This document shows positions 6,012-40,485 of a stretch of 64,000 nucleotides of DNA, in pieces (within the stretch, counting starts at the first letter, position 1; each line of letters begins with the position of its first letter). Position numbers and translations under genes: made by a program. Below the pieces are notes generated by a model, which saw only the letters and a program-made list of their open reading frames with translations, made no database searches and had not been told where the DNA came from. Source of the stretch: Sphingobium sp. 66-54 (lineage in GTDB: Bacteria; Pseudomonadota; Alphaproteobacteria; Sphingomonadales; Sphingomonadaceae). The DNA is taken from contig MKWI01000013.1 of assembly GCA_001899715.1 (NCBI GenBank), forward strand, positions 80,600 to 144,599, read 5' to 3'.

Positions 6012-8540
6012 ATGAAGGGAGTTTGGTTCTCGGCCGCGGCGATTCTGCCGTTTGCGGTCATGTCCGGCAGCCCGGCGCTCGCGCAGGGGCAGGCGGCCGA
6101 GGGCGCCGACACGGACGCGGGCGGCATCGCCGAGATCGTCGTCACCGCGCAGAAGCGCGCGGAGAATGTGCAGGATGTGCCGATCGCCATCTCGGCCTTC
6201 ACCAGCGACGCGCTGCAGGAGCGCGCGGTCGCCAGCGTGGCGGCCTTGTCGAACATCGCGCCCAACGTCACGCTGGACGCGGGTACGCCCTTCTCGGGTT
6301 CCTCGGCCGTGCTCTCGGCCTTCATCCGGGGCATTGGCGCCAATGACTTCGCGTTCAACATCGACCCCGGCGTGGGTGTCTATCTGGACGGCGTCTATCT
6401 CGCCCGCTCGGTCGGCGCGAACCAGGAACTGGCGGACGTCGAGCGGATCGAGGTGCTCAAAGGGCCGCAGGGCACGCTGTTCGGGCGCAACACGATCGGC
6501 GGCGCCATCTCCATCGTTACCCACGATCCGGGCGATGAGTTCCGCTTCAAGGGCGATGTGACGACCGGCAGTTTCGGCCTGCTCCAGGCACGCGGCACGG
6601 CGGATATTCCGCTGGCCGATGGCCTGTCGTCCTCCGTCGCCTTCTCCATCCGCAACCGCCGCGGCTATCTCAAGCGGCTTCAATATCAGGGCGGTGGCGA
6701 TTATAATGTCGAGCCGATAACGGCCTATAAGGCAGCGGGCTACGGCAATATCGGACCGGGCACCGAAGGCGGCGATGATAATTGGAGCAGCCGCGTCAAG
6801 CTGGTCTATGATCCGGGCGGGTCCGTGCGGTTCACCCTGTCCGGCGACTATAGCAAGATCCACCAGTCGCAGATCGCCAACAAGCTCATCAAGACCTTCC
6901 CCTTTGTGTTCGCCGGCACCTATAATTGCGCGATCATGGGCGAGACGGATGGCTGCGGCGACGGGCCGCCGTCCGTCGCTTTTGCGGGAGGGATTGGCGG
7001 CCTCCACACGATCACCGATCTGCCGGGCCTGTTCGGTGTCAATGTCGACGCCGACCCGACCAACGATCGCCTGCCTTATGACGACCGTTTCGTGACCGAC
7101 GATATCGACACGAGCTACGCGAACGGCAATAACTTCTCCAACATGCGCACCTATGGCGTGGCGGGCACGGCGACGTTCGACCTGAACGACGATGTCCAGC
7201 TCAAGTCGATCACGGCCTATCGCGAACTGCATTGGGTCTCGGCGATGGACCTCGACGGCTCACCGCTCAACTTCCTGCACACCAGTTTCGAGATGAACCA
7301 GTGGCAGTTCAGCCAGGAATTCCAGTTGCTCGGGTCCGCACTCGACAAGCGGCTGAACTATGTGCTGGGCGCTTATTACTTCAAGGAAGCGGGCGACCTG
7401 CATGACTATGTGACCTTCGCGCAGGGCCTGTTGCAGGTCGATGGCCCGAACGATCTCAAGACCGAGAATTATGCGGTGTTCGGCCAGATCGACTTCCGGC
7501 CGGTGGACCAGTTCGGCATCACCATCGGCGGCCGTTACACTCATGAAAACAAGGCGTTCGAGGGTGCGCAGGGCGATGCCAACGGCTTGACCTACAAGAT
7601 ATTGCAGCAGTTCGGCGTGCCGGAATGCGCCGTGATCGTGCCGATCTCGGACGAATGCCGGGTCGCCGCGGGCTATTTCGTGCCGGGGCAGCCGCTGCGT
7701 TATTATATCGCCGGGATGCAGCACAAGAAGTTCAACAACTTCTCGCCGAAGGTCGGCGTGCAATATCACCCCAATGACGATGTGATGCTCTATGCGAGCT
7801 GGTCGAAGGGGTACAAGACCGGTGGCTGGACCACCCGCCTTTCCAATCCGCTGGACTTTGCGCCGGGCTTCGATGAGGAGAAGGCAACCACCTGGGAGTT
7901 GGGTGCCAAGTCGACGCTGCTCGATCGCCGGCTTCAACTCAACGGCGCGCTGTTCCAAACCAACTACAAGGGCATCCAGCTCAACTTCCAGCAGGGCGTC
8001 TCCCCGGTTATCCAGAATGCCGGCGATGCGCGCATCCGGGGCTTCGAGGTCGAGATGGTGGCGGCGCCGGTCGATGGCTTCACCATCAACGGCTCAGTCG
8101 GCTATCTGGATGCTTACTATACGCGGGTCGACGCGGGCGCGCAGGTGGCGCCGGCCACAGGCGTGTTCGGCGCCTATGGCGTGGTGCCGGGGGCAACATT
8201 GCCCAAGACGCCGAAGTGGAAGTTCAACATCTCGCCGCGGCTCGAAGTGCCGTTGGGCAATGGCGGCAAGATCATCGCGCTGGCCGACTATACCCACAGC
8301 TCGAAGTTGAAGAACGACACGGAAGGCTATTTCCTCCTGATGCGCGGCGCCACGGACATCGTGAACGCCAGCCTCACCTATCGTGAGCCGAACGGGCGGT
8401 GGGACGTGACGGTGGGCGGCACCAACCTGACCGACGAGCGCTATCTCGTTACCGGCCAGGCGCAGTTCGCCGGCGGGCAAGCCTACGGCACCTACTCGCG
8501 GCCAGCCGAATGGTATGCGCGCCTGTCCGTAGACTTCTGA
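6012..8540 (+). CDS. TonB-dependent outer-membrane receptor
   Basis: An 842-residue receptor that should import a bulky ligand across the outer membrane using ExbBD-TonB energy. It has a signal peptide cleaved near SPALAQG, a TonB-box-like segment IAEIVVTAQKR, a plug domain with IEVLKGPQGTLFGRNTIGG, and a C-terminal beta-barrel ending in an aromatic residue (YARLSVDF), as outer-membrane insertion requires. The ATG is six bases after a perfect AGGAGG. It is of the large type that sphingomonads use for plant or aromatic compounds, and lies beside a cupin dioxygenase-like gene; the ligand is unknown. Confidence 0.95.
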   Translation: MKGVWFSAAAILPFAVMSGSPALAQGQAAEGADTDAGGIAEIVVTAQKRAENVQDVPIAISAFTSDALQERAVASVAALSNIAPNVTLDAGTPFSGSSAVLSAFIRGIGANDFAFNIDPGVGVYLDGVYLARSVGANQELADVERIEVLKGPQGTLFGRNTIGGAISIVTHDPGDEFRFKGDVTTGSFGLLQARGTADIPLADGLSSSVAFSIRNRRGYLKRLQYQGGGDYNVEPITAYKAAGYGNIGPGTEGGDDNWSSRVKLVYDPGGSVRFTLSGDYSKIHQSQIANKLIKTFPFVFAGTYNCAIMGETDGCGDGPPSVAFAGGIGGLHTITDLPGLFGVNVDADPTNDRLPYDDRFVTDDIDTSYANGNNFSNMRTYGVAGTATFDLNDDVQLKSITAYRELHWVSAMDLDGSPLNFLHTSFEMNQWQFSQEFQLLGSALDKRLNYVLGAYYFKEAGDLHDYVTFAQGLLQVDGPNDLKTENYAVFGQIDFRPVDQFGITIGGRYTHENKAFEGAQGDANGLTYKILQQFGVPECAVIVPISDECRVAAGYFVPGQPLRYYIAGMQHKKFNNFSPKVGVQYHPNDDVMLYASWSKGYKTGGWTTRLSNPLDFAPGFDEEKATTWELGAKSTLLDRRLQLNGALFQTNYKGIQLNFQQGVSPVIQNAGDARIRGFEVEMVAAPVDGFTINGSVGYLDAYYTRVDAGAQVAPATGVFGAYGVVPGATLPKTPKWKFNISPRLEVPLGNGGKIIALADYTHSSKLKNDTEGYFLLMRGATDIVNASLTYREPNGRWDVTVGGTNLTDERYLVTGQAQFAGGQAYGTYSRPAEWYARLSVDF

Positions 8541-40097: not shown

Positions 40098-40131
40098 TCG
40101 TCACCCCGGGCTTGACCCGGGGTCCCGCTTC
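40098..40131 (+). repeat. left REP-like hairpin flanking the GIY-YIG gene
   Basis: A 34-bp repeat whose core CCCCGGG-CTTGA-CCCGGGG is a 7-bp stem with a five-base loop, followed by TCCCGCTTC. It is perfectly inverted at 40452-40485. If translated in frame with the nuclease it gives HPGLDPGSRF, a tell-tale of a repeat read as coding. Confidence 0.92.
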
Positions 40132-40146
40132 TCCCATCCGAGGCGG

Positions 40147-40446
40147 ATGGAGCGGGAGCGACGGGGCGGCTGGGTCTATATCATGGCCGACCGCTATCGC
40201 GGCACCATGTATGTCGGTGTCACGTCGCACCTTGCCGCCCGCATCCATCAGCATCGATCCGGGCCCGGCTCCGACTTCTGTGCGCGCTATGGGCTGGTTC
40301 GTCTGGTCTGGGCCGAGCGCGGCGAGGACATCGCCGACTGCATCGCGCATGAAAAGCGCCTCAAGCGCTGGCGCCGGCAGTGGAAATTCGAGCTGATCGA
40401 GCGCGGCAATCCCGATTGGCGGGATCTGTTCGACCGGCTGGTGTGA
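40147..40446 (+). CDS. GIY-YIG endonuclease-domain protein (YhbQ/URI type)
   Basis: A 99-residue single-domain protein. GGWVYIMADRYRGTMYVGVT carries the GIY (VYI) and YIG (YVG) pair; LAARIHQHR supplies the catalytic Arg and His, and a glutamate is present in AHEKRLKRWRRQWK. This is the compact GIY-YIG family with a KxLKxWxRxWKxxLIExxNPDWxDL tail. The ATG at 40147 was chosen because starts further upstream lie before the REP sequence and would translate it. There is no strong ribosome site. The gene is framed on both sides by perfect inverted REP hairpins, the right one starting six bases after the stop. Confidence 0.85.
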   Translation: MERERRGGWVYIMADRYRGTMYVGVTSHLAARIHQHRSGPGSDFCARYGLVRLVWAERGEDIADCIAHEKRLKRWRRQWKFELIERGNPDWRDLFDRLV

Positions 40447-40451
40447 CCGAG

Positions 40452-40485
40452 GAAGCGGGACCCCGGGTCAAGCCCGGGGTGACGA
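40452..40485 (-). repeat. right REP-like hairpin flanking the GIY-YIG gene
   Basis: Exact reverse complement of 40098-40131 over all 34 bases. Core stem CCCCGGG / CCCGGGG. It lies six bases beyond the nuclease stop and could also act as its transcript end. Confidence 0.92.

Follow-up and report, generated by a model that had tools for sequence, protein, structure and literature searches.

Inverted CGTC-tagged palindromes enclosing a GIY-YIG nuclease gene: a candidate mobile element behind CGTC repeats in Sphingobium and other bacteria

Two inverted repetitive extragenic palindromes (REPs) of the CGTC superfamily enclose a gene for a small GIY-YIG protein in Sphingobium sp. 66-54. We describe this 388-bp REP-GIY-REP unit, which occupies positions 40098..40485 (+ strand) of the window, the whole 64,000-nucleotide stretch of contig MKWI01000013.1 (assembly GCA_001899715.1, positions 80,600 to 144,599) that was analysed. 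The gene and its two REPs form one unit, and we think it likely that the predicted nuclease cuts CGTC-tagged hairpins, so that both the unit and related REPs spread. On the best reading of the sequences, GIY-YIG nucleases would be the missing partner of CGTC REPs, and the unit would be a mobile element that resembles a REPtron but uses an unrelated nuclease.

The CGTC-REP superfamily was defined by Di Nocera et al. in 2013 (PMC3733652), as repeats found mainly in Alphaproteobacteria and with inverted dimers predominating. They concluded that CGTC REPs seem to have no transposase of their own. REP-associated tyrosine transposases (RAYTs) are described there as the presumed mobilisers of GTAG REPs, and the survey found no CGTC repeats on either side of a tyrosine transposase gene. 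Its main text never mentions GIY; in another paper (PMC9465073), RayT and a GIY-YIG endonuclease are separate, unlinked entries of one gene table. No earlier report joining GIY-YIG proteins to REPs was found in the open PMC library, which holds neither bioRxiv preprints nor the bulk of subscription papers.

The unit is bounded by two 34-mers, at 40098..40131 (+ strand) and 40452..40485 (− strand), that are exact reverse complements of each other; an inverted-repeat search extends the arms to 37 nucleotides at 97% identity. Each holds CCCCGGG-CTTGA-CCCGGGG, and one further A-T pair lengthens the stem to 8 bp around a 5-nucleotide loop. In the left REP, the tag CGTC (40099-40102) is followed by the stem (40103-40110), the loop (40111-40115), the returning stem (40116-40123), and a tail (40124-40131); in the right REP, the tag reads GACG on the plus strand at 40481-40484. 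Both stem-loops thus carry an unpaired CGTC ahead of an 8-bp stem and a 5-nucleotide loop, the form that defines CGTC-2 repeats. Folded as single-stranded DNA, the two hairpins reach -10.9 and -12.0 kcal/mol, values equalled by 0 of 200 and 9 of 200 shuffled sequences, respectively. The core occurs within the window at these two sites only, against a chance expectation of 0.19. The gene between them (40147..40446, + strand; ATG at 40147, TGA at 40444-40446) encodes 99 amino acids; other reading frames between the hairpins are also open, and we see no reason to call them genes. Exact 34-bp inverted hairpins around a single 99-residue GIY-YIG gene had been described in the original prediction, made from the letters of the DNA, and both points hold. 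The pair shares with the CGTC-REP superfamily its tag, its stem and loop, and its arrangement as an inverted dimer; it differs in enclosing a GIY-YIG gene.

The protein is a predicted member of the GIY-YIG nuclease superfamily: it matches PF01541 at E 4.6e-10, and Y10, Y21, R31, E68, and N87 (numbered on a 98-residue query) are invariant in 16 aligned rows. We take these residues to have the catalytic roles of their counterparts in other GIY-YIG proteins. The predicted structure (mean pLDDT, a per-residue confidence, 88.6; predicted template-modelling score 0.80) is a single, bare GIY-YIG domain; the model includes no second, DNA-binding domain. The nearest solved structure, by sequence (E 1.8e-8) and by fold, is UPF0213 protein BH0048 (1zg2), which likens the protein to the small single-domain UPF0213/YhbQ-like proteins. 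Next come chains of Slx1, which cuts branched DNA according to the title of the matched structure entry; these matches are weak, and no fold match reaches E 0.001. The ratio of nonsynonymous to synonymous substitution rates (dN/dS) is about 0.1 between the window gene and four genes of other genomes (81-87% protein identity; for example dN 0.09, dS 1.01) and 0.14 against the TomMM15 gene. It is 0.35 between the two stop-free copies of the Sphingobium genome; three closer pairs, which differ little, give 0.12, 0.51, and 0.10. Since the ratio is about 0.1 against other species, the intact gene is under purifying selection at the protein level on longer time scales.

The REP is dispersed in its own genome, where a search for the core that tolerates up to 3 mismatches finds 51 occurrences, versus 4 for a reversed control pattern, and 31 tagged copies are found with at most 1 mismatch; most are inverted dimers, as in other CGTC-2 repeats. 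Two further full-length copies of the unit are present: one at C16:36882-37257, reversed and with unrelated flanks, and one at C26:2564-2940 (both in core coordinates, genome G000), where the gene has one internal TAG and both arms carry the variant core CCCCGGACTTGATCCGGGG. The flanks of the three full-length copies are unrelated, and homology stops at the repeats. Gene-free pairs are also present: we read 12 short inverted REP pairs with arms 88-161 bp apart, and saw at least one more. Tags point outward in the short pairs and in the three long ones. The interiors of 7 of the 12 short pairs match full-length elements at p<=0.03, six of them at p<=0.02 (100 shuffles each), so that by sequence some short pairs look like internally deleted elements.

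The association of gene and repeat extends far beyond this genome. A panel of the Sphingobium genome and 60 relatives was searched at a match limit of E 0.001: 46 of the 61 genomes have a match to the nuclease, and 2292 proteins pass the same limit in a protein database. A flanking inverted repeat, counted at a score of at least 14, is present at 27 of the 30 best relatives' loci, at 88 of 110 loci of a wider set, and at 12 of 20 further phylum-wide loci. These sets overlap: four of the 30 loci recur among the 110, and one of the 110 (L144) is the same place as a locus fetched separately. Controls in the same loci seldom reach a score of 14 (2 of 428 displaced positions, 0 of 110 shuffled sequences). 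Pairing the arms of different elements is useless as a control (mean score 15.4), because members of a clade share their repeats. Under a stricter rule, with repeats sought within 130 bp, 66 of the 110 loci have tagged hairpins on both sides, 19 an inverted repeat only, and 7 a single hairpin. The reverse test starts from the repeats: a search of 199 family genomes for inverted CGTC-2 core pairs 315-345 bp apart yields 15 distinct places, and all 15 enclose the gene; this spacing was picked to fit the gene length, and the result informs on that spacing alone. The association holds across repeat types and bacterial classes.

Repeat sequence also follows nuclease clade. Of 192 elements, 13 were set aside (12 found through the repeat pattern itself, one with masked bases), and 55 of the remaining 179 lack two scored tagged hairpins, which leaves 124. 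When different genomes are compared, REP identity is 0.62 for proteins 40-50% identical and climbs to 0.99 for those at least 80% identical; no Mantel permutation (0 of 2000) reaches the observed correlation. The match holds even between paralogues of one genome: when repeats are shuffled among the copies within each genome, 0 of 5000 trials agree with the nearest nuclease elsewhere as well as the real arrangement does. Among elements with a same-genome paralogue below 65% identity, the REP is in 27 of 28 cases more similar to the one flanking the nearest nuclease of a different genome; genome G016 alone holds four copies with four REP types. Removal of three near-duplicates leaves these results unchanged (121 elements; 27 of 28; 0 of 5000). 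On a tree of the 124 proteins, many of whose forks are unresolved, repeat types need 16 changes versus 60.9 when shuffled. REPs outside the elements give a comparison free of linkage, though weaker evidence: in 37 genomes of the genus, presence of the cognate nuclease clade goes with higher numbers of them (p 0.008 and 0.013); crossed comparisons with the non-cognate clade give p 0.61 and 0.51.

Sites with and without the unit were compared between related genomes, and presence and absence were seen at four loci. In genomes G016 and G018, the unit stands behind a gene whose end now seems to run into the repeat; in G030 and G022, whose flanks are 97% and 96% identical to that of G016, there is no unit and no palindrome at that site. 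Because G018 is less similar to G016 than are the unit-free G030 and G022, the pattern could reflect loss, exchange, or repeated gain. On Sphingobium plasmids, the interval from fnrL to a response-regulator gene holds the unit in seven records, one of which (TomTYG73) has a 1-base gap in the gene; TomTYG74 and TomTYG64 have a single doubly tagged palindrome in the same interval, and TomTYG72 and TomTYG65 have neither. In Azospirillum lipoferum 4B, the gene and its REP dimers occupy the interval from sufB to sufC; the gene is not there in four other Azospirillum regions, and the site has no doubly tagged palindrome in A. ramasamyi and A. oryzae. Lastly, Sinorhizobium meliloti Ak57 has one internally truncated and one full copy between gltA and lpxB. 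In Sinorhizobium K101, this interval lacks the gene, which has matches elsewhere in the record, and a palindrome flanked on each side by a variant tag lies where Ak57 has the truncated copy. The original prediction had proposed a REP-associated GIY-YIG system, to be recognised by enrichment of the gene between inverted copies, by empty sites in close relatives, and by covariation of repeat and nuclease clade; comparison of genomes supports it on all three counts.

Other comparisons add detail. The window unit is intergenic, between the convergent ends of two genes that we take, by similarity, to be a TonB-receptor-like gene and leuA. Genome G028, the only one among 29 other loci to have the TonB gene beside leuA, has no element there, and its intergenic region is too divergent for a clean junction. 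Shinella H4-D48, whose record is absent from the 33 plasmid records with a match, lacks the gene and has a shorter interval; the intergenic alignment is poor, and no junction is claimed. Genome G518 has four dispersed, near-identical copies (L264, L267, L268, and L269), three of which have about 30 bp in common outside both repeats, so either adjacent sequence moved too or the target itself is repeated. Empty sites inside G518, sought by a pattern for the common outer flank, were not found in the two genomes searched. Four identical matches in G036 lie at contig ends and were not counted as independent moves. Among loci with long open frames around the matches, scoring of the flanks established no in-gene insertion. 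Comparison of L300 and L303 with L301 and L302 suggests that the inserted repeat gives the upstream gene a new stop codon.

Across 119 elements, no clear target-site duplication was found: flush direct repeats of 2-9 bp show no clear excess, with 2 seen versus 1.16 expected at 3 bp, and none at 4 bp or longer. A DDE insertion sequence or miniature inverted-repeat transposable element with target-site duplication was rejected on this ground. The base beside the tag is a pyrimidine on the left in 106 of the 119 elements, and its mirror a purine on the right in 105.

In the mechanism that we infer from sequence, the nuclease would recognise the CGTC-tagged hairpin, as a single strand or as a cruciform, and nick or cut at it. 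Repair or replication would then copy the REP-bounded segment elsewhere, with no target-site duplication, and the short inverted REP pairs would be internally deleted, non-autonomous derivatives, mobilised partly in trans. The nuclease would be the CGTC-REP counterpart of RAYT, working as in a REPtron with an unrelated enzyme on another REP superfamily. The likeness to RAYT systems (IS200/IS605-like) lies in a small nuclease gene bracketed by its presumed target palindrome, in dispersed REP dimers, and in the lack of visible target-site duplication. The differences are the GIY-YIG fold in place of HUH/Y1 and the tag CGTC in place of GTAG; the original prediction had likewise seen a RAYT-like layout with an unrelated nuclease.

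Several observations weigh against this mechanism. Under the stricter rule, 18 of the 110 loci have neither a tagged hairpin nor an inverted repeat, and 8 of the 20 phylum-wide loci fall below the score. Nuclease loci without repeats had been named at the outset as a finding that would undermine the link; such loci exist as a minority, and the association otherwise stands far beyond chance. The interiors of 5 of the 12 short pairs have no significant match to full-length elements. The gene and its flanking repeats are physically linked, and therefore clade matching follows in part from shared descent alone. The tests on REP counts ignore phylogeny, and we assigned clades by identity and tallied copy numbers from the same matches. 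In genome G010, REPs of the two types number 20 and 48, and there is no close nuclease match: this either fits loss of the nuclease after the REPs spread or counts against the link. Finally, no target-site duplication was found, and the unit-free sites examined are not clean simple insertions.

The closest rival is a variant of the proposed mechanism in which the REP is the target and not just the end of the unit: the gene would enter existing CGTC palindromes, an unoccupied one would be cut, and an occupied one would serve, by REP homology, as template for the repair. Classical homing endonucleases, with their long recognition sites, include GIY-YIG enzymes, which belong to one superfamily with Slx1 and the window protein; the window unit differs from homing endonuclease genes in its terminal palindromes and in a modelled protein with no additional DNA-binding domain. 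Homing would suit the lack of target-site duplication, the lone palindromes of TomTYG74 and TomTYG64 where seven sister plasmids hold the unit, and the palindrome of Sinorhizobium K101. No such palindrome lies at the G030 and G022 site, however, or at sufB-sufC in A. ramasamyi and A. oryzae, and doubly tagged CGTC-2 palindromes are rare: of 198 family genomes, 8 have any, and one of the palindromes is an arm of a full unit. These palindromes may be targets, but could equally be deletion scars, and we hold homing to be unlikely. Their distribution is uneven: genome G602 has 13 solo palindromes of the form CGTC-stem-loop-stem-GACG (L335, L338-L344) versus one each in the seven others. Ranked below homing, and likewise improbable in our judgment, is the view of the gene as a passenger, cargo kept for repair or defence, for example, in REP pairs that another enzyme or host recombination moves. 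The surplus of gene-free short pairs over full units in the Sphingobium genome (the 12 examined and at least one more, versus 3), the persistence of repeats in G010, and the linkage that can by itself explain clade matching all speak for it. Against it, every one of the full-spacing pairs carries the same gene, the association crosses repeat types and classes, and unlinked REP counts track the cognate clade only.

Two further explanations have little in their favour. RAYTs could have mobilised REPINs, mobile REP doublets, that captured a nuclease gene; RAYT (PF01797) matches occur in 19 of the 61 genomes, and the GTAG REPs thought to depend on RAYTs offer a precedent (PMC3733652). The Sphingobium genome, estimated to be 100% complete, has no PF01797 candidate, so RAYT was rejected as the mobiliser there; the tags are CGTC, for which the same survey found no flanked tyrosine transposase gene. 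We consider this route very improbable. Coincidence, with REPs acting as terminators that collect around small genes, would draw on the survey's observation that REPs lie mostly downstream of genes, but it does not account for matched arms at both ends with tags outward, for the 2 of 428 displaced positions, or for the 15 of 15 in the reverse test; we give it almost no credence.

More distant relatives of the gene occur in other repeat settings. The Sphingobium genome has two such paralogues on contig C6 with other flanking repeats, one pair scoring 22 and the other poorly matched at 10. Another GIY-YIG clade (L236, L238, L241, L242, and C6:219135 of the same genome, which is L037 near 7100-7450) has flanking hairpins whose tag is CGTG or TGTG in place of CGTC; these may be another REP family. 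On plasmid p1 of Planktothrix agardhii (L319), an MmeI-like restriction gene and the DISARM gene drmA enclose a distant GIY-YIG relative, which lies near GTCATTCTGAG repeats. A homologue in Neisseria gonorrhoeae sits among CGTCATTCCCGC repeats.

Neisseria CGTC-1 elements are the repeats called dRS3, according to the same survey (PMC3733652). We see an even chance that GIY-YIG nucleases mobilise the whole CGTC-REP superfamily, dRS3 included, and that REP-GIY-REP units are a new class of palindrome-bounded elements whose deleted descendants are REP dimers. In the 2013 survey, a candidate mobiliser was known for GTAG repeats and none for CGTC repeats; a clade-matched nuclease that consistently sits between the latter makes that open question directly testable. 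If the proposal is right, an unrelated nuclease family would join the builders of palindromic repeat populations in bacterial genomes, and part of the REP dimers would be decayed elements.
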